Below are positions 1 to 34,007 of a stretch of DNA of 37,572 nt, in pieces. Source of the stretch: a virus. Positions within the stretch are counted from its first letter, which is position 1; the number at the start of each line of letters is the position of its first letter. The notes below the pieces were generated by a model. It saw only the letters and a list, made by a program, of their open reading frames with translations. It was not told where the DNA came from and ran no database searches. The position numbers were made by a program, and so were the translations under genes. The DNA is taken from IMG/VR virus record IMGVR_UViG_3300042868_011649, positions 1 to 37,572 of that record, one strand, 5' to 3'.

Positions 1-405
1 ATTCTTTTTTTATGGACAACCGATGCTCACTTGGAAGAAGCGATGAAAGTAATAAACGCTTGGGGCTTTAAATACAAAACGATTGGTTTTACTTGGCTTA
101 AAAAAGAGAAAAGCGGTGTGCAAAGTTGTTATGTGGGTTTTTGGACTACTAAGTGTGGGGAAATATGTTTGTTAGCAACAAAAGGCAATATGAGCAAACA
201 TTTAAAGAAACGCAATGTAAGGCAATTAGTAGAAGCAACAAGGGGTAAACACTCTGAAAAGCCAAATGAAGTAAGACAAAGAATAGTTGAAATGTTTGGA
301 GATGAATTGCCAAAGATTGAATTATTTGCAAGGCAAAATTATAATGGATGGGATGCTTGGGGTAATGAAGTTGAAAACAGTATTGATATTACCGACTATG
401 AATAA
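1..405 (+). CDS. MT-A70 family DNA adenine methyltransferase, 3' part (5' end outside window)
   Basis: The frame is open from base 1 and reads ILFLWTTDAHLEEAM, so the gene starts left of the window; in-window start codons are internal. The visible part is the C-terminal half of an MT-A70 (N6-adenine methyltransferase) fold: GFWTTKCGEICLLATKG, then a basic stretch ending in RQLVEA, the HSEKPNEV segment, and the closing IELFARQNYNGWDAWGNE, all typical of phage MT-A70 proteins. The family transfers methyl from S-adenosylmethionine to adenine N6, here presumably for protection against host restriction. The catalytic DPPW-type motif would lie upstream and is not visible. It is followed by a second, C5-type methylase gene. 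Confidence 0.85.
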   Translation: MLFLWTTDAHLEEAMKVINAWGFKYKTIGFTWLKKEKSGVQSCYVGFWTTKCGEICLLATKGNMSKHLKKRNVRQLVEATRGKHSEKPNEVRQRIVEMFGDELPKIELFARQNYNGWDAWGNEVENSIDITDYE

Positions 406-543
406 ACGTGCGGTGGCTTTTTTCTTTTTATTTTTCCTTCACGGATTTTCAATTGGAAACGGTCAGCAAGGCATTTCATATAACGTTATGCGGCTTTGTG
501 ATGTTGCCGAAAAAACACACACTAATTTTTAAATTTAAGACAA
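406..543 (+). repeat. Intergenic region with stop-anchored repeat, copy A (481-543)
   Basis: No convincing gene. From 481 the sequence follows a pattern shared with 15078-15157 and 15416-15477: TAACG, a GC-rich GCGGC, CTTTGT, a short stem, TTGCC, the complement of the stem, then CTAA, T/A-rich sequence and an ATG. Here the stem is TTGTG pairing with CACAC, and CGGC pairs with GCCG. The same stem positions in the other copies differ but stay complementary, which points to a conserved RNA or DNA fold rather than chance. It directly precedes the C5-methylase start. Confidence 0.6.
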
Positions 544-1698
544 ATGTTTAAAGATATTAACGAGCCTTTAATTTTAGCCGAAAACGGCAATAGCACAAAA
601 CCGATGTTACAAGCAGTACTTTCTCTTTTTGACGGAATGAGTTGTGGACAAATTGCATTGAATAAAAACGGATTTGAAATTAAAGAATATTACGCTTCTG
701 AAATTGATAATCACGCAATAAATGTAACTCAAAACAATTTTCCTAAAACAAAACAAGTAGGAAGTGTAACAGAATTAAAAACTGATAATTTACCTAAAAT
801 AGATTTATTAATTGGTGGTAGTCCTTGCCAAAGTTTTAGTAACGCTGGATTAAGAAACGGTTTTGATGGTAAAAGCAAATTATTTTATGAATATGTAAGG
901 GTTTTAAAAGAAGTAAAACCAACTTACTTTTTACTTGAAAACGTGAAAATGAAAAAAGAATGGCAAAATATTATTTCTAAAGAATTAGGAGTTGAACCAA
1001 TAGAAATATGCAGCTCTTTATTTTCTGCCCAACAAAGAAAGAGATTGTACTGGACTAATATAAATGTTGATTTATCAAAGTTGCCAAAATCAAACAATGT
1101 GATTGCTGATGTTTTAGATTTACCAATTAAAAATAAAAGAGAAAATAAAATATTAATGAGCAAATCTGATTTTAAAGTAAAAGTTAGAAAAAACTATATT
1201 GATAAAAAAGAACTTGCTTTGTTTTTAAGAAGTTACAAAACTAAAACCATTAATGAAATATCTATTTTTTGTAATGCTCCAAAAACTATGGTTGAGCATT
1301 GGTTTAGAAATGATAATAGTTTTTCAATTCCTGATGCTGAATATTGGTTTAAATTAAAAGAATTTCTTGAAATAGAAGATTGTAAATACGATAAAGCAGT
1401 TACTGAATTTGAGTTAAAAAACAATTCATTTGATATGGCTAAACGAATTTACCATATTGATGGAAAACACCCAACACTTACAACACTTACTGGTGGCGGA
1501 CAAAGAAAAACTATTACAGATGGAAACGAAATGTTTTATTTAAACCCTGAACATTGCGAAAAATTACAAACCGTTCCATTAGGATATACAAAAACAGCAA
1601 GTGAAAGACAAAGATTTAGAATGTTGGGTAACGGATGGACAGTTGATGTTATTGCCTTTATTCTTTCTTTTATACCGCAGTCGCAGTATTGCTTGTAA
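544..1698 (+). CDS. C5-cytosine DNA methyltransferase
   Basis: 384 residues, complete. Motif I LSLFDGMSCG (about 26-35) binds S-adenosylmethionine. Motif IV GGSPCQSFSNAG (91-102) holds the nucleophile Cys95. Motif VI is LLENVKM (131-137) and motif VIII QQRKRLYW (163-170). The region before the C-terminal motifs carries a VEHWFR segment (about 256) and then TLTGGGQRKT, as in several phage and type II C5 methylases. It methylates cytosine at a target I cannot predict. The first 20 residues precede the fold and contain ENGNSTKPML, which resembles the start of the unrelated gene at 15478. An alternative ATG at 604 would remove this segment. Role: probably anti-restriction. Confidence 0.93.
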   Translation: MFKDINEPLILAENGNSTKPMLQAVLSLFDGMSCGQIALNKNGFEIKEYYASEIDNHAINVTQNNFPKTKQVGSVTELKTDNLPKIDLLIGGSPCQSFSNAGLRNGFDGKSKLFYEYVRVLKEVKPTYFLLENVKMKKEWQNIISKELGVEPIEICSSLFSAQQRKRLYWTNINVDLSKLPKSNNVIADVLDLPIKNKRENKILMSKSDFKVKVRKNYIDKKELALFLRSYKTKTINEISIFCNAPKTMVEHWFRNDNSFSIPDAEYWFKLKEFLEIEDCKYDKAVTEFELKNNSFDMAKRIYHIDGKHPTLTTLTGGGQRKTITDGNEMFYLNPEHCEKLQTVPLGYTKTASERQRFRMLGNGWTVDVIAFILSFIPQSQYCL

Positions 1699-3505: not shown

Positions 3506-4468
3506 ATGAACAGTAAAATTAAAAATTTAGATTACTCAAAACTTCTTTTTGCAGATTGTGAAACCATCAGAGGAGAAGAGACTTTTGACCAAAGCCACCC
3601 ATATTATAGTGTTTGGCAGTGGAAACAGAGAAATAAAGAGACTAATGAATTTCTTTCAGATGAAGAAAATATTCGCCTTTATTATGATAAATCGGCATTA
3701 TTCCCTGAGTGGGGTAAAATAGCTTGTATATCTGTTGGATTTATACATAATGATGAACTTCATATTAAGTCTTTTGTTGGGGAAGAGAAAGAAATACTGA
3801 CTAATTTAATATCTTTAGTTAAATCCACGGGCAGGAGTTTAGTCTTTCATAACGCTGAGTTTGACATGCCCTACATAAGAAAAAGGTGGTTCATAAATGG
3901 ATTAAAGACAGAAGATTATTTATCTGAGACACAAGGTAATGATGTAGGGATGAAAGTGTGGGATATGGAAAAATCTGTACATGACAGTATGAAATTATGG
4001 AAGGGGATAAATTTTGGAAACACTTCTTTAGATGAATTGGCAATGTGCTTTAAGATTCCATCAAGTAAACTCATTATGCATGGTAATGAAACTTCTGACT
4101 ATTTTTATTCAGGTAGAATTAAAGAGCTACAATCTTACTGTGAATCAGATGTTGCAGTATTAAGTAACCTAATAAGAGTTTGGAAAGGAGATAATATTTT
4201 AGAGCCTATTTTTAGGCAAGATATTAAAACAGAAGAGTTACCTCTGTTACAAAAGATTTATACAAATAAGGTAATTACAATAAAAGATAAACAGAAGTTA
4301 GAGGAAATTTTAAAAAAGAATAAATTATCTAAAAAAGAAAAAGACATTGTATTAGATTTAGTTAAAGCATCTTTAGCCGAAATTGATTCTAATTTTGGAA
4401 AGGTAACCAATCAAAAACAGATAGATGAAATTATAAACCAATTAAAAGAAGAATTTGAAAGCAATTAA
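3506..4468 (+). CDS. DnaQ-like (DEDDy) 3'-5' exonuclease
   Basis: 320 residues. The RNase H-like exonuclease signature is complete: LLFADCET (D-x-E) near residue 16, VFHNAEFDMPYI (Asp) around 115, and LQSYCESDVAVL (Y-x3-D) around 212. This resembles the exonuclease domain of family B DNA polymerases without the polymerase domain. It likely degrades single strands or proofreads in trans during phage replication or recombination. The C-terminal 90 residues are lysine-rich and helical. Only two bases separate it from the upstream gene, and its stop overlaps the next nuclease gene. Confidence 0.85.
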   Translation: MNSKIKNLDYSKLLFADCETIRGEETFDQSHPYYSVWQWKQRNKETNEFLSDEENIRLYYDKSALFPEWGKIACISVGFIHNDELHIKSFVGEEKEILTNLISLVKSTGRSLVFHNAEFDMPYIRKRWFINGLKTEDYLSETQGNDVGMKVWDMEKSVHDSMKLWKGINFGNTSLDELAMCFKIPSSKLIMHGNETSDYFYSGRIKELQSYCESDVAVLSNLIRVWKGDNILEPIFRQDIKTEELPLLQKIYTNKVITIKDKQKLEEILKKNKLSKKEKDIVLDLVKASLAEIDSNFGKVTNQKQIDEIINQLKEEFESN

Positions 4469-5168
4469 AATAAATTTACCTAAGTTGTATGAAAATGAAT
4501 TAGGTAATTACCCACAACATAAAAATAAACAGAAAATTAGTTATAGTCAACTTAATTCTTTTAAAGATTATAAAGAGCAGTACATACAAGGATATTTTTT
4601 AGGAAACTCCTCTGAAAGTGGTATGTTTGCATTTTTTGGTAATCTTGTAGGGACTTATTTCTCTGATGGCGAGAGGGATAAAAATCTGTCTGAATTTGAC
4701 ATGAACACTATTAATCAGTTAGTTAAACATGAAAGTTCTAAATACGAGTCTGAAATAGTAATTGACCTTGAACCTTTTGGACTTAAAGATTGTGTTTTAC
4801 AGGGGTTTTCAGACCATGAATACGAGATTGATAGTATGTTATTTATAGAAGATTTAAAGACAGGTGCATCTAAAAGTATGCAAGAGAAGTATGGAGATAT
4901 AAAAAAGTATTATCAAACTCGTATGTATGCTTATCAAAGAGAATTAGAAGGTTTTGATATCGGTGGTTGCAGAGTAAATCATTTAGACCGCAAAGGAAAT
5001 AATTTAATAATAGGTGATAAAAACTGTTTAAGGTTAACGGGTCAGATTGATTATATCTATACACCATATAAAAAAGAAGATGTAGAATACTATTTAAAAA
5101 ATTCTGTTGTATCTGTTTGCAAAGAAATTTCAGAGTATTTTAAAATTTATCAAAAATATTTTAAATAG
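4455..5168 (+). CDS. PD-(D/E)XK nuclease (RecB/Cas4-like)
   Basis: 237 residues from a TTG start at 4455 that overlaps the exonuclease stop; no ATG is available before residue 50, so TTG is the best choice. The core reads LQGFSDHEYEID (Asp) and then LFIEDLKTGAS (E-D-x-K), the PD-(D/E)XK active site. A later Gln-Tyr segment, YYQTRMYAYQRELEG, matches the RecB-family Q-x-x-x-Y motif. YSQLNSFKDYKEQY at the N-terminus is the usual first helix of this family. It should cut DNA, and may cooperate with the adjacent exonuclease. No Cas4-type cysteine cluster is visible. Confidence 0.8.
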   Translation: MKAIKINLPKLYENELGNYPQHKNKQKISYSQLNSFKDYKEQYIQGYFLGNSSESGMFAFFGNLVGTYFSDGERDKNLSEFDMNTINQLVKHESSKYESEIVIDLEPFGLKDCVLQGFSDHEYEIDSMLFIEDLKTGASKSMQEKYGDIKKYYQTRMYAYQRELEGFDIGGCRVNHLDRKGNNLIIGDKNCLRLTGQIDYIYTPYKKEDVEYYLKNSVVSVCKEISEYFKIYQKYFK

Positions 5169-9032: not shown

Positions 9033-9132
9033 GCTGTCCGAGATAGCGGTGTAAAAGAATCTTTTTTAAGAACTTGGTACACGAAACATAAAAATAATGC
9101 TCCTGTCGCAAATTAATGGCAGGAGTTTTTTT
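9033..9132 (+). promoter_or_regulatory. Structured nrdB leader with terminator-like hairpin
   Basis: GCTGTC/GATAGC with a 3-base loop lies at 9033-9047, and GTGTA (9049-9053) can pair with TACAC (9078-9082). CTCCTG (9100-9105) pairs with CAGGAG (9120-9125), followed by seven T (9126-9132). This is an intrinsic terminator form between the promoter and the nrdB start at 9161, so read-through must be controlled or partial. An attenuator is the simplest reading. The ATG at 9116 lies inside the hairpin and is not the gene start. Confidence 0.6.
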
Positions 9133-9160
9133 GTCTAAAATAATTAAATCAATAATAAAA

Positions 9161-11104
9161 ATGAGTAAATACTTAAATATTACAAATGGTGAACGTAACA
9201 CTAAATTTCCTATCTACCACACAGAGTTGTGGGATTATTTTAAAAAACAACAACAAGCTATTTGGACAGCAGAAGAATTAGATTTAAGTAAAGATACTTT
9301 TGAAGGGATACCTGATAAAACAGTTTCTATTTTAAAACATCTATTAGGTTTCTTTGGTGTTTCTGATAGTATAGTTCAAGATAATTTAGCCGATGAAATT
9401 ATTTCAGAATTTTCCTCTATTGAAGAGATTAAATCTAACTATGTTTATCAAGCATATATAGAAGATGTCCATTGTGTCAGTTTTGATACAAAAATCCTTA
9501 CAGATAAAGGGCAATTAAAAATTGGGAAATTAGTCGGAGAATCGGTTAATGTATGGAACGGGGAAGAATTTTCAAAGGTAAGAATTGTTGAAACAGGTGT
9601 TCAAGATTTATATAGAGTTACCTTATCCGATGGTAGTTATATAGATTGTACAGATGGGCATAAGTGGTTCATAAGACATGGTAATCAAAACCACCCAGAA
9701 AATTGTAAGTTAATAAAAAAACCAACAAACACATTAAGTTTAGGGGATGTTATATATGATTTCAATTTACCAATTGTAGATTTACAAGACGAAGATTTTT
9801 TACTAAATCCTTATATACATGGATTCTTTTGTGCAGATGGTAGTTACACAAATAATGCACCATATATTAAATTATATGGAGAAAAGAAGAATCTTTTGCC
9901 TTATTTTGGAGATTTAAGTGCAGAACGTAAAGATATTTATAAGTTCTACCTAACCAATAAATTAAATAAACCTAAGTTTTTTACACCAATAAACTATTCA
10001 GTAAAAACAAAAATAGAGTGGTTAGAGGGGCTTTTTGATGGTGACGGCTGTATAAATTATAATAAAAAAAGGACAGCTACTGCTATTCAGTATACTTCAA
10101 TAAACTTAGATTTCATAAAAAATGTAAAACTTTTACTAACTACTTTAGGAATATCTGCAAATTTAAAAGTGGCTAAAAAAGAAGGGTTTAGTTTATTACC
10201 TGATGGTAAAGGAGCTAACAGACTATATGAAACAAAAGAGTTATACTGCTTGTATATAACAACAGCAAACGTTAAAAAGCTCGCTAAGTTAGGGTTTAAT
10301 CCTAAAAGGTTACAGATTAAAACTGATGAATTAGTTGTAGAAAGAAAAAAGTTAATTAAAGTTGTAAATATAGAAAAAATACAGACCGAGATGACTTATT
10401 GTTTTAGCGAGCCTCTTAGAAATGCAGGGGTATTTAATGGTATTCTGACAGGGCAAAGCGAAACATATAGTAGATTAATTGAACAACTTATAAAAGATGA
10501 CCAAGAAAAGTTTGAAATGTTTAATGCTATTAAGACCAATCCCATTGTAGCTGAAAAAGTTAAGTGGGCTAAAAAATGGTTAGAGAATGGCAGTTTAATT
10601 CAAAGAGTAGTTGCGTTCTCATTGGTTGAGGGAATGGCTTTTAGTTCTACTTTTGCTTTTTTAATGTTTTTCCGCCAAAAATATCCACAATTAGCGGGAC
10701 TTGGACAAGCAAATGAATTGATTTTAATTGATGAATTAATGCACATGAACTTTGCAATACTTCTTTATAACAAATATATTAAAGATGATTATAAGTTACC
10801 ACAAGAAGAAGTTAGAGAGATGATTTTAGACTGTTATAACACTGAAAAACTATTTGTAGAGTCTATCTATGAGCAAGGAGATGTTATTGGTTTACCAAAA
10901 GAGAAGATGTTACAATATGTTCAATATGTTGCTGATAATTTACTTTATTATTATCAACTACCATTAGAATTTAACGTTTCACAACCTTTGGATTTTATGT
11001 CGAACATTAGTTTAGTAGTAAGACAAAACTTTTTTGAAAGTAAGAGCGGTGCATATCAAAAATTGGAAAATATGGGTGGGGATTTATTTAATGATGATTT
11101 TTAA
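9161..11104 (+). CDS. nrdB: Class I ribonucleotide reductase small subunit, intein-containing
   Basis: 647 residues from ATG 9161 (MSKYLNITNGERN), preceded by an A-rich start region. Removing the 328-residue intein leaves about 319, normal for a phage R2. Metal-site signatures: WTAEELDLSKD near 40, AYIEDVH (Glu101, His104), VEGMAFSS (Glu) and LIDELMHMNF (Glu and His). The radical Tyr is in SETYS, directly after the intein. R2 holds the metal/tyrosyl cofactor that starts ribonucleotide reduction by NrdA. The partner nrdA is downstream, separated by a methylase gene. Function depends on intein splicing because the insertion falls between metal ligand His104 and the radical Tyr. Confidence 0.95.
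   Translation: MSKYLNITNGERNTKFPIYHTELWDYFKKQQQAIWTAEELDLSKDTFEGIPDKTVSILKHLLGFFGVSDSIVQDNLADEIISEFSSIEEIKSNYVYQAYIEDVHCVSFDTKILTDKGQLKIGKLVGESVNVWNGEEFSKVRIVETGVQDLYRVTLSDGSYIDCTDGHKWFIRHGNQNHPENCKLIKKPTNTLSLGDVIYDFNLPIVDLQDEDFLLNPYIHGFFCADGSYTNNAPYIKLYGEKKNLLPYFGDLSAERKDIYKFYLTNKLNKPKFFTPINYSVKTKIEWLEGLFDGDGCINYNKKRTATAIQYTSINLDFIKNVKLLLTTLGISANLKVAKKEGFSLLPDGKGANRLYETKELYCLYITTANVKKLAKLGFNPKRLQIKTDELVVERKKLIKVVNIEKIQTEMTYCFSEPLRNAGVFNGILTGQSETYSRLIEQLIKDDQEKFEMFNAIKTNPIVAEKVKWAKKWLENGSLIQRVVAFSLVEGMAFSSTFAFLMFFRQKYPQLAGLGQANELILIDELMHMNFAILLYNKYIKDDYKLPQEEVREMILDCYNTEKLFVESIYEQGDVIGLPKEKMLQYVQYVADNLLYYYQLPLEFNVSQPLDFMSNISLVVRQNFFESKSGAYQKLENMGGDLFNDDF
9473..10456 (+). mobile_element. Intein with LAGLIDADG homing endonuclease in NrdB
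   Basis: The N-terminal splice block is CVSFDTKILTDKGQ (Cys1), and a later TDGHKWF is the block B Thr/His region. Two LAGLIDADG-type motifs follow, GFFCADGSYTNN and LEGLFDGDGCINYN. The C-terminal block is AGVFNGILTGQ, followed by extein Ser433. The last intein residue is Gln instead of the usual Asn, and the nucleophile downstream is Ser. Both endonuclease motifs keep their acidic residue, so homing activity may be intact. The insertion point is the conserved R2 active-site strand, as expected for inteins. Confidence 0.9.
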
Positions 11105-29819: not shown

Positions 29820-30320
29820 CTATTCTATCAATTTTTTAGTCTTTGCATCAAATTTTAAGCTGTGTAGTGGACAAGTTATAACTCCATCAATAGGATTTAT
29901 ATTGCTCAAATCGAAACCCCTGTGTGGACATTTTCCTTTGTGAATACATTTATGCTTTAACTTTGAATTTTTAATGCGTTCCACAGATGTTCCTCCTGAA
30001 TGATTTTCTGAATGTCTTATCAAATTAAAATACCTTGTTTCAAATTGTCCTTTTATAGGTCGAGTAGAATCTACTTGAATTTTATATTTTCCCAAGCTAG
30101 GTTGTTCTCCATTATACCTCATATCAGCATGATAATGGATTTCTCTTTGCCCGTTTTCTATGTCAGAATGTGGATGGTCAATAAGAGGTATTATTTTGTA
30201 ATAGAAATTCTTTGTCTTTAATGAATAATCTTCTAAATCCATCCACAAATCTTCTTCATTTATATCTTCAAAAACTGCTTCTGGAATTATGGCACATAAA
30301 ACTTTATCTTTTATCATCAC
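29820..30320 (-). CDS. Rieske [2Fe-2S] domain protein
   Basis: 166 residues. The C-terminal 45 contain the complete Rieske cluster motif: CPHRGFDL (Cys131, His133) and TCPLHSLKFD (Cys150, His153), spacing C-x-H-x16-C-x2-H. The N-terminal 110 residues have YYKIIPLIDHPHSDIENG and a strand-rich region, resembling no known oxygenase domain. Rieske proteins pass electrons, often to a mononuclear iron oxygenase. The start is preceded by GGGGGTG, one of the few Shine-Dalgarno-like sites here. It lies downstream of the NAD cassette on the same strand. The electron partner is unknown. Confidence 0.85.
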   Translation of the reverse strand: MMIKDKVLCAIIPEAVFEDINEEDLWMDLEDYSLKTKNFYYKIIPLIDHPHSDIENGQREIHYHADMRYNGEQPSLGKYKIQVDSTRPIKGQFETRYFNLIRHSENHSGGTSVERIKNSKLKHKCIHKGKCPHRGFDLSNINPIDGVITCPLHSLKFDAKTKKLIE

Positions 30321-31085: not shown

Positions 31086-31104
31086 AATTTCTAATTTTAT
31101 TCCA

Positions 31105-31135
31105 CAAATATACAAGTTATTTTTATATTAAACAA
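31105..31135 (-). promoter_or_regulatory. Promoter of the Rieske block
   Basis: Minus strand: TTG (31135-31133), 20 bases, TATATTTG (31112-31105). It shares bases with the T tail of the terminator upstream (31133-31139). Confidence 0.8.
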
Positions 31136-31164
31136 GAAAAAGCGGAGAAAATTAATCCCCGCTT
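31133..31164 (-). terminator. Intrinsic terminator of the NAD cassette
   Basis: Minus strand: AAGCGG (31164-31159) pairs with CCGCTT (31145-31140), followed by TTTCTTG. Sits right after the Prs-like gene stop. Confidence 0.78.
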
Positions 31165-31168
31165 CAAA

Positions 31169-31996
31169 TTAAAATAAATCAACTACTATTAGATTTTTAG
31201 GTTTTTTACCATATTTATCATAACTACCTACCGTTACAATATAATCTAAACCTTTAGAATTAGTGGTAAAAACTCTGTCGAAAAGTTTCCATATTTCAGC
31301 ATTTGGAGACTCTATTGTAATATGAGACAAAGCTAAATATAATCTACCGCAATTACGTTCCTTCAACATTTTAGCTAAGCCTACAAATGTTGAGCCTCCT
31401 ATCATTAAATCATCTATAATCAGCACATCCTTACCTCTAAAATCTTCTCTGTCAACAACTTGTACTAATTTTGATTTACCATCTTCATACTTTCGTGACT
31501 TAGAAGCTCCATATACTTCTCCTTTCCATTGTAATTTATCGGCTAACTTCATTAAAGGTTTAAATCCACCTGCATCACTTGAGAATAAAACCAAATTGTT
31601 TTGAAATTCTCCGTGTATACCTTTTCCATTATTGAAATGCTCAGAAAGAATTCTGCCTATAAAACCAAAGTTATCAATTATTTTTACACTGTCCATTAAA
31701 CCTTCTACAAGTTCTCCGTTGTGAGGGTGAAAAACTTTAAAATCAGCTTTCATAGAATTTAAAAACTTACAAATTAGTTTTAAACCACTACTTTGATTTT
31801 TAGCAAATCTTCTATCAGCTTGTGCATCTAAAAGATTAGGAATTGTAACTGTTGGGGTAATTCCTAAATTATTTAAAGCATCCACTGTTTGATTTAAGTG
31901 CCACACATCTTCATAATTATTTAGTCTAAAAGTAAATTCTGATATGGGATGAACAGTTACATAAGAACTTCCGTCGGGATATTTAGTGATTTCCAT
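31169..31996 (-). CDS. Ribose-phosphate pyrophosphokinase (Prs)-like; probable ADP-ribose pyrophosphate synthetase (Adps)
   Basis: 275 residues. Prs-fold motifs: DAQADRRF (58-65, like the Prs ATP-binding RQDRRF), VFHPHNG (the VDxH-type metal site, 88-94), LFSSDAGGFKPLMKLA (138-152), and the PRPP-binding loop VLIIDDLMIGGST (191-203). A Prs makes PRPP from ribose-5-phosphate and ATP. In the known phage system NARP1 a Prs-like enzyme (Adps) makes ADP-ribose pyrophosphate from ADP-ribose and is paired with a NAMPT-like enzyme. That pairing is seen here, so Adps is the better guess; sequence alone cannot prove the substrate. Overlaps the 119-residue gene by 14 bases. Confidence 0.88.
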   Translation of the reverse strand: MEITKYPDGSSYVTVHPISEFTFRLNNYEDVWHLNQTVDALNNLGITPTVTIPNLLDAQADRRFAKNQSSGLKLICKFLNSMKADFKVFHPHNGELVEGLMDSVKIIDNFGFIGRILSEHFNNGKGIHGEFQNNLVLFSSDAGGFKPLMKLADKLQWKGEVYGASKSRKYEDGKSKLVQVVDREDFRGKDVLIIDDLMIGGSTFVGLAKMLKERNCGRLYLALSHITIESPNAEIWKLFDRVFTTNSKGLDYIVTVGSYDKYGKKPKNLIVVDLF

Positions 31997-32342
31997 CTAG
32001 TATTATTTTATTTGTTAGTCTAAAAGTACCCTGTTTGATTATGTAGTGACCAAATTTGTCATAAAATCTGAAATCTTGGGATTCATACTCGTGAATGTAC
32101 CAACCGTGTTCTTGAAGTTTTAAGATATCGTCTTTTGAAAACCACTGATATAAATCATCAATATTATCAACTACCGAAATCCATCCTACAAGGTCTTCAT
32201 CAAAATCCATTTTTAAATCGCTATTATTGCAGAAATTAAATTTGTCGTGAATAAACCCTGAAAATTCTCCGTCGAAGTGATACCATAATCCTTGATTAGT
32301 ATCTGTATTTGATACTCTGTAGAATTTCTTACTTTTGTTCAT
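31983..32342 (-). CDS. Uncharacterised protein between the NAD-cassette enzymes (119 aa)
   Basis: Reads MNKSKKFYRVSNTDTNQGLW, YHFDGEFSGFIHDKFNFC, LVGWISVVDNIDDLYQWFSK and a C-terminal QDFRFYDKFGHYIIKQG. Well-formed alpha/beta protein with no known catalytic motif. From memory, similar proteins occur beside phage NAMPT/Prs genes, which would suggest a joint role. Overlaps the Prs-like gene and lies 12 bases after the NAMPT-like gene, so all three are in one operon. Confidence 0.72.
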   Translation of the reverse strand: MNKSKKFYRVSNTDTNQGLWYHFDGEFSGFIHDKFNFCNNSDLKMDFDEDLVGWISVVDNIDDLYQWFSKDDILKLQEHGWYIHEYESQDFRFYDKFGHYIIKQGTFRLTNKIILDGNH

Positions 32343-32354
32343 AGCTCTTTCATT

Positions 32355-33923
32355 TTATTCAGTAATTCTCTCTCTGATTTTGGTTAACGTTGTTTGGTTA
32401 TAATACTTACCATCTTTAAATCTAACTTTAAGTTGATTTTCTTCTGAATTAACTTCTGCTAATGTGGCTTGGTCTTTCAAATAATAATCTCCATTTTCAT
32501 CTTTATAAACAACTGTTAACCCTTTTGCAGATTTTTTAATTCCGTCATCTGTAATAGGGTCTTTAAAGATTTCAACTATCTTACCATTTCTTTGTTGAGC
32601 AATACACTTTAAAGCCATCCCCCAAGTATCTCTAGTTACCATTTGCATTGAATAACTACCTTGTCCAAAGAAACAATTACTTGCCGCAAAACCTTTAGCT
32701 TCTAATCTTTCAAAGATTTGTTTAATATTATCTTGGTTGATAGCCTCACCGTAAATCATTCCAATATGGGAGTCTAATACTTTAAAGCCTTGCTCATTTA
32801 TAGTACCTCCAAAAACGTCCCAAAGTAATTCAATGACACCTTTAATTTCAGAATGGGAGTATTTCACATTTGATTTCTTTTCCCAATACCAATTTGGTTC
32901 TCTTTCATTTCCTCCATTATCTCTTACATATTCTTTTTCAAATTTAAATACTTGTTCATTTTCAACTTTACAGTTGTTTATCCCACAAATAATATCCACA
33001 GGATTTCCTGAGTCAGGGCGAATAACCAATTTACCATCACGAGCCATGATAATATCTTTCAGTTTAGGTAAATAGTCTGTCAAAACTCTCCATAAATCAA
33101 AACTGTCTGATACTAAAGACATAATTCCATTAGGAAATTTAGTCAGTAAGTTTTTATAAATTTCAAACTCTCCTTCTACTCCCCCCGCAGTCATTTGTGA
33201 ATGCTCACTAGCCCGAACTGAAAAGACAGGAGTTTCTGTTTCATCATAATAATGCTGAGAAGCTTTAATTGTAGGTAGACTATCAGAACCTTTTGATACA
33301 GAGGCAAAAGCTAATCCTGAACCAATTGTAGCATCTAATCCTGTTAAACCACGCATAGAAAAATCATGTAACATAAAATCAACAGCTCCTACATTATCTT
33401 TGTCGGTTCTTAATACTGCTTCTTTTACAATTCGTTTCATAAGTAAAACATTTGTAGCCGTTGTAAGGGGTTGCCATAAAAGATTACTTAAAATAGTTTC
33501 TATGTAGTTAGTAACCCAAGCAAACCTAATGTCTGTATTATATAAAAATAAAATAGGAATTTTAATTGCAGACTCTGTACCCTCATCCAAGGTTCTAATT
33601 TCTATAGGTAAATACCCTAAATCATGTAATTCTGAAATGTGGTTTGTATCGTAGTCTACACCAAGGTATGCAGAAAAATTTGTTTTAATATCTTGAATTA
33701 CTTCTTCTTTATTTAGATTGAAGAAATTTTCATTAAAATGTTCAACAATAAACCTAATTGCATACTGATGTCCAAAGTTTAAAACTTTCCCATTATTGCC
33801 TTTTGGAGCATACTTATTACTTCTTGGAGTAAAATTACTGTATACTACTTCAGTCCCATCTTGATACATGTTAAAATGACCAACTTTGTAACCATCTGCT
33901 AAAAACATACTATTCATTCTCAT
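32355..33923 (-). CDS. NAMPT-like nicotinamide phosphoribosyltransferase; probable Namat of a NARP1 system
   Basis: 522 residues from 33923 (MRMNSMFLADGYKVGHF); the longer frame begins in the promoter. NAMPT landmarks: YSNFTPRSNK, MLHDFSMRG (Asp187, contacts nicotinamide in NAMPT), SVRASEHSQMT (catalytic-type His241), SLVSDSFDLWRVL, VIRPDSGNPVD (Arg302, Asp304, phosphate and ribose binding), and FGQGSYSMQMVTRDTWG near the C-terminus. NAMPT joins nicotinamide to PRPP to give NMN. In NARP1 the homologue (Namat) joins nicotinamide to ADP-ribose pyrophosphate, giving NAD+ directly. The Prs-like partner favours the latter. Has its own promoter. Confidence 0.9.
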   Translation of the reverse strand: MRMNSMFLADGYKVGHFNMYQDGTEVVYSNFTPRSNKYAPKGNNGKVLNFGHQYAIRFIVEHFNENFFNLNKEEVIQDIKTNFSAYLGVDYDTNHISELHDLGYLPIEIRTLDEGTESAIKIPILFLYNTDIRFAWVTNYIETILSNLLWQPLTTATNVLLMKRIVKEAVLRTDKDNVGAVDFMLHDFSMRGLTGLDATIGSGLAFASVSKGSDSLPTIKASQHYYDETETPVFSVRASEHSQMTAGGVEGEFEIYKNLLTKFPNGIMSLVSDSFDLWRVLTDYLPKLKDIIMARDGKLVIRPDSGNPVDIICGINNCKVENEQVFKFEKEYVRDNGGNEREPNWYWEKKSNVKYSHSEIKGVIELLWDVFGGTINEQGFKVLDSHIGMIYGEAINQDNIKQIFERLEAKGFAASNCFFGQGSYSMQMVTRDTWGMALKCIAQQRNGKIVEIFKDPITDDGIKKSAKGLTVVYKDENGDYYLKDQATLAEVNSEENQLKVRFKDGKYYNQTTLTKIRERITE

Positions 33924-33950
33924 TTTTAAAAATTTAATTATTTTATTCCA

Positions 33951-33981
33951 CAAATATACAAACTATATTTTAAACCTGCAA
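33951..33981 (-). promoter_or_regulatory. Promoter of the NAD cassette
   Basis: Minus strand: TTG (33981-33979) in TTTGCAGG, 20 bases, TATATTTG (33958-33951). The ATG at 33923 follows by 27 bases. Consensus match is perfect. Confidence 0.85.
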
Positions 33982-34007
33982 AAGATTTATTATTTATTTT
34001 CAAAAAA

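Follow-up and report, generated by a model that had tools for sequence, protein, structure and literature searches.

A probable NARP1 operon of a Bacteroidota phage contains a small candidate accessory gene that recurs beside both versions of phage NAD+ reconstitution

Phage NAD+ reconstitution has been described in two versions. NARP1, represented by phages SpBetaL1 and Bas63 and by the NrsAB system of ICP1, combines a Prs-family enzyme, Adps, with a NAMPT-family enzyme, Namat. In the published accounts NARP1 is presented as a two-enzyme pathway, and it is established for these systems that Adps forms ADPR-PP and that Namat makes NAD+ from ADPR-PP. NARP2, represented by Vibrio phage KVP40, pairs Nampt with an NMN adenylyltransferase (NMNAT). 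Accessory genes have also been reported at NARP1 loci. RyDEP, a RyR-domain (PF02026) glycosidase, is an ADPR-producing accessory encoded within the NARP1 operon of mycobacteriophage DyoEdafos (PMC13232231), and a macro-domain gene beside the NARP1 genes of Pakpunavirus Adele has been proposed to serve as a source of ADP-ribose or to neutralise an ADP-ribose signal (PMC12846349). The study that deposited the SpBetaL1 Namat crystal structures (9W5W and 9W5X) defined a Namat-specific ADPR-PP selectivity clamp (PMC12774641). This clamp comprises a helix motif, GSX.X.X.TRD, with aromatic residues at positions 3 and 7, and a loop with either Arg or Lys/Tyr with a stacking residue after it, the Lys form being described for Bas63 (PMC12774641).

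The window analysed here, the 37,572-nt IMG/VR fragment IMGVR_UViG_3300042868_011649, is incomplete as a virus record. Another contig, of 79,494 bp (G001), derives from the same virus (99.99% identity over 35,877 bp) and contains the same operon. Three genes are tightly packed on the minus strand of the window: a Namat-like, NAMPT-family enzyme (522 aa, 32355..33923), a 119-aa protein that we refer to as MID (31983..32342) and an Adps-like, Prs-family enzyme (275 aa, 31169..31996). The end of the Namat-like gene and the start of MID are separated by 12 bp, and the MID and Prs-like genes overlap by 14 bp. The first-pass annotation had described a two-gene operon of NAMPT-like and Prs-like reading frames; both are present and both gave family matches, but the MID reading frame between them (32342..31983) had been overlooked. 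The neighbourhood of the Namat-like and Prs-like genes is conserved in relatives.

Bacteroidota promoters follow a TTTG/TAnnTTTG consensus, and a motif of this type, TTTG-N20-TATATTTG, lies upstream of the Namat-like gene (33951..33982, minus strand). It occurs 13 times in the window, compared with 4.3 times in shuffled sequences. The earlier description of this promoter as perfect holds for the Bacteroidota consensus but not for sigma-70, a search for which was uninformative (46 promoter-like sites versus 40.8 in shuffles). An exact 21-bp promoter core, TTGTATATTTGTGGAATAAAA, is found twice on the minus strand, at 33941-33961 and, ahead of the next gene group at 31115, at 31095-31115; this duplication suggests that the NARP1 operon and that gene group are expressed in a coordinated way. 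Because the TTG at 33953, from which the listed 532-aa reading frame starts, sits within the promoter, the ATG at 33923 is the better start for the Namat-like gene. As had been claimed, an intrinsic terminator-like hairpin with a 10-bp stem and a T-rich tail (31139..31165, minus strand) follows the Prs-like gene and closes the operon. Downstream of the operon, a reading frame at 29820-30320 has a match to a Rieske-type [2Fe-2S] domain.

The NAMPT-like protein matches NAPRTase (PF04095, E 1e-32), NAMPT_N (PF18127) and phrog_448 (E 3e-170). Its best solved relatives are the two SpBetaL1 Namat structures, at about 381 bits, compared with about 199 bits for human NAMPT. A tree of 21 phage proteins places it in the Namat (NARP1) clade with support of 100/99, on the same side as proteins from Bacillus FADO, Staphylococcus K, Felix O1, Vibrio phi 3, Pakpunavirus EPA3 and crAss-like phages and opposite KVP40 (NARP2), VH7D, KP27, DLP6 and Magneto. 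A wider tree repeats this split (SH-aLRT 100), with each reference set on one side of the branch. The catalytic core is conserved (HDFSMRG, GSD, EHS and RPDSG), and the Nampt-type motif GGGLLQ/GGKLLQ is absent from the protein. The clamp loop, TPRSNKY, has Lys followed by Tyr, as in the Bas63 form. The clamp helix, GSYSMQMVTRD, keeps the motif frame and has Tyr at position 3, whereas its position 7, Tyr or Phe in most Namats, is occupied by Met. Met, His or Cys also occupies this position in other members of the NARP1 clade (L102, L104, L106, L103 and EPA3), and Asp361, which contacts the AMP phosphate, is replaced by Glu in the window protein and in L008. Clade, clamp motif and the SpBetaL1 structures bear out the expectation that this protein would group with Namat and not with ordinary NAMPT. 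By its sequence characters it is a Namat-class protein with an altered clamp, and the substitutions at position 7 and at Asp361 could weaken its preference for ADPR-PP.

The Prs-like protein matches PF00156 (E 1e-10) and phrog_619 (E 1e-33) and contains the catalytic residues of its family, namely the KxR flexible-loop pair, the PHN histidine and a DD..GGST loop. This PRPP-type loop (DDLMIGGSTF) reads GGST in the window protein and YGGT in close relatives, a departure that weighs against the NARP1 reading. Clustering gave a mixed answer here: the window protein falls among phage Prs-like proteins that adjoin Namat, but the tree, which includes a single cellular Prs (from E. coli, on a long branch and with weak support), leaves Adps and cellular Prs unseparated.

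Compared with described NARP1 systems, the window operon has the same enzyme families in neighbouring genes, membership of the Namat clade, the catalytic core, most clamp residues and, as far as detected, no phage NMNAT. It differs in the Met at clamp position 7, the Glu for Asp361 and the presence of MID between the enzymes. From these features, the operon is very probably the NARP1 of a tailed phage infecting Bacteroidota. The suggestion of a Flavobacterium phage was not upheld, as, judged by virion protein, Cellulophaga phi4:1 and phi17:2 come closest among sequenced phages, at 41% identity. Two further features of this genome were observed. The two contigs diverge where window positions 1-1695 are compared with L110 (G001 77824-79494) and encode different C5 cytosine methyltransferases (384 aa versus 309 aa), which amounts to a gene swap at strain level. 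A 662-aa reading frame for the ribonucleotide reductase small subunit (9116-11104) contains a LAGLIDADG/intein-like insert.

We next consider MID. The protein matches phrog_23161, a family annotated as of unknown function, from end to end, as do 33/33 aligned members, and it has no match among Pfam, NCBIfam or PADLOC families. A literature search returned no paper naming phrog_23161, which is a family without assigned function or described genomic association. Alignment-driven scans located MID relatives in 42 virus records, 29 of which contain NAMPT and 22 Prs. No match was obtained in plasmids, and a single-protein scan of bacterial genomes returned none.

MID occurs beside both NARP1 and NARP2 genes. 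On the NARP1 side, the gene order is Namat-MID-PRS in the window, PRS-MID-Namat with overlaps on both sides in L047, PRS-DRT-MID-macro-Namat in L046 and Namat-MID-DRT-PRS in L059. On the NARP2 side, some loci place the MID relative between the NMNAT gene and the Nampt gene, with the orders NMNAT/Nudix-MID-DRT-Nampt in L049 and NMNAT..macro..MID-Nampt in L105. The L049 locus encodes a fused NMNAT-Nudix protein (4090-4989), the gene for which overlaps that of MID by 4 bp. Across loci, the MID gene overlaps PRS (window), PRS and Namat (L047), NMNAT (L049) or DRT (L059).

MID might instead be an unrelated passenger in a variable slot, close to NAD genes because large Bacteroidota phages gather their accessory genes in common hotspots. 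Consistent with such an origin, the slot is filled in relatives by a HAD-like protein with a DFDDTL motif, a macro domain or an HNH endonuclease. In many records MID is also remote from NAMPT, and roughly half of all records place it at a large distance from NAMPT/PRS; the complete phage phi4:1 and Rhizobium phages encode it without NAMPT/PRS. Because it is present in these phages and is often distant, MID is not an obligate partner. Against a passenger origin, 12 of the 26 non-redundant records that contain NAMPT or PRS have one of these genes within 3 kb of MID, where uniform placement predicts 3.3. Since uniform placement is an optimistic null, control genes from the same genomes matter here: of 41 cases of ribonucleotide reductase, dUTPase or thymidylate synthase, 1 has MID within 3 kb (Fisher p 1.6e-5). 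Linkage to two different routes, NARP1 and NARP2, and reading-frame overlaps with several different partners likewise speak against a passenger. The recurrent linkage is established, and we regard the passenger explanation as a real but minority possibility.

The slot itself seems to host varied ADP-ribose- or nucleotide-related genes. In other Bacteroidota phages, including crAss-like ones, a HAD-like DFDDTL protein of ~135-143 aa lies between Namat and Prs (L008 2162-2572, L009 5613-6014 and L005 5511-5942), and its L009 member has no Pfam match. A similar protein is encoded in cr111_1 and DAC15; their middle gene, a candidate MID homologue by position, was rejected when alignment identified it as this different protein. 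The Felix O1 slot gene is an HNH endonuclease. Macro-domain or macro-like genes recur in or beside phage NAD+ reconstitution loci (L033 2489-2962, L035 4888-5367, L046 5505-6029 and L105 3577-4107; in Vibrio phi 3, between PRS and Namat), and many MID-bearing genomes have a macro-domain gene beside NAMPT. A nucleoside 2-deoxyribosyltransferase-like protein (PF15891) also recurs in these NAD islands (L046 4337-4810, L049 5453-5899 and L059 5339-5803).

Structure prediction provides a further view of MID. Two AlphaFold2 models, built from 12 and 33 sequences, are mutually consistent with a pLDDT of 88. Searched against the PDB, the model places ADP-ribosyltransferases (ARTs) on top (ParT and TreTu, with Arr-2 lower), with E of 0.4-0.7 (best 0.4-0.6) and TM of about 0.36-0.41, values that are below significance. 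A viral library yielded two ART-annotated phage proteins, with an ART match at probability 0.93 and E 0.02, and a sequence search against the PDB gave chance matches only. Residues invariant in the 33 members include Arg9, a GLWY motif, His32, Ser56, Trp67, Phe68 and His99. The models point to a likely ART-like or ADP-ribose-binding fold.

An active ADP-ribosyltransferase that modifies a host target with the rebuilt NAD+, the NARP genes supplying its substrate, would fit these fold neighbours, and the invariant Arg9 (strand 1), Ser56 (strand 2) and His99 are arranged in a way reminiscent of ART active sites. We nonetheless consider such an enzyme unlikely, as the 33 members have no invariant catalytic Glu, the PDB similarity is below significance and Pfam and NCBIfam gave no ART match. 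By analogy with RyDEP, which likewise is a third gene within a NARP1 operon (PMC13232231), MID would instead be an accessory that handles NAD+ or ADP-ribose. Identity with RyDEP itself is ruled out by the lack of PF02026: RyDEP is a RyR-domain glycosidase, whereas MID matches no Pfam family and is predicted to adopt an ART-like fold. The Adele locus offers a similar parallel in having an ADP-ribose-related accessory gene beside NARP1 (PMC12846349). It differs in that the window encodes MID but lacks a macro domain; both occur together in some other MID-bearing genomes.

The assignment to NARP1 also depends on whether an NMNAT is encoded elsewhere. Neither the 79 kb of G001, itself an incomplete sequence from this virus, nor a 142-kb relative (G018) with a Namat-like protein 83-88% identical to that of the window yielded an NMN adenylyltransferase (PF01467); the KVP40 positive control was detected. 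The NARP2-like alternative that the first-pass annotation had raised for such a gene thus found no support in either genome. Among MID-bearing records, a sample selected by MID and so not random, genomes with the Namat motif have PRS in 13/13 cases and an NMNAT-like gene within 10 kb in 0/13, compared with an NMNAT-like gene within 10 kb in 7/11 and Prs in 4/11 of those with the Nampt motif. Because Prs is also present in these 4/11 Nampt-type genomes, its position next to NAMPT is insufficient alone as proof of NARP1. The window shares a NAMPT-family enzyme with NARP2 but has a different NAMPT clade and motif, no NMNAT in the sequences searched and a Prs-family partner instead. On clade, motif and the lack of an NMNAT in G001 and G018, we reject NARP2, and the original identification as NARP1 is supported by these same features together with the Prs-family partner. 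Plain NAD+ salvage, in which PRPP from the Prs-like enzyme is turned into NMN by the NAMPT-like enzyme and a host NMN adenylyltransferase completes NAD+ in a NARP2-like or metabolic role, is very improbable, given that the protein sits in the Namat clade with a GS-type clamp motif, that neither the 79 kb nor the 142-kb relative has an NMNAT-like gene and that phage NMNAT genes in the MID-bearing set adjoin Nampt-type and never Namat-type genes, even though Namat retains PRPP-dependent NMN synthesis in vitro (PMC12774641), the window clade has Met at clamp position 7 and Glu for Asp361, and Prs extends to some Nampt-type genomes.

From the characterised relatives, we infer the reactions of the window operon, its counter-defence role and the activity of MID. 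The Prs-like enzyme, acting as Adps, would pyrophosphorylate ADP-ribose with ATP to give ADPR-PP, and the NAMPT-like enzyme, acting as Namat, would join nicotinamide to ADPR-PP, producing NAD+ directly from both products of NADase immunity. MID would be produced from the same transcript as both enzymes and most likely handles NAD+/ADP-ribose species, for example by binding an immune signal or by liberating ADP-ribose from such a signal or from an adduct. By analogy, its most economical role would be supply of ADP-ribose or neutralisation of an ADP-ribose signal. We see an even balance for and against MID as a functional accessory of NARP1. More tentatively, and with somewhat less confidence than that, MID could be a third component of phage NAD+ reconstitution, common to NARP1 and NARP2, with an ART-like fold that releases or captures ADP-ribose species from NADase immunity.

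MID may thus be an overlooked partner, a small, previously undescribed gene that recurs beside both versions of the pathway. Judging from the window locus and those related to it, the pathway in Bacteroidota phages seems to be embedded in a larger, modular island of NAD+/ADP-ribose genes, with Namat/Nampt, Adps/Prs, NMNAT-Nudix, a macro domain, a nucleoside-deoxyribosyltransferase-like protein and MID as its parts. Should immune ADP-ribose signals prove to be its targets, MID would represent a new family of anti-Thoeris or anti-NADase proteins.
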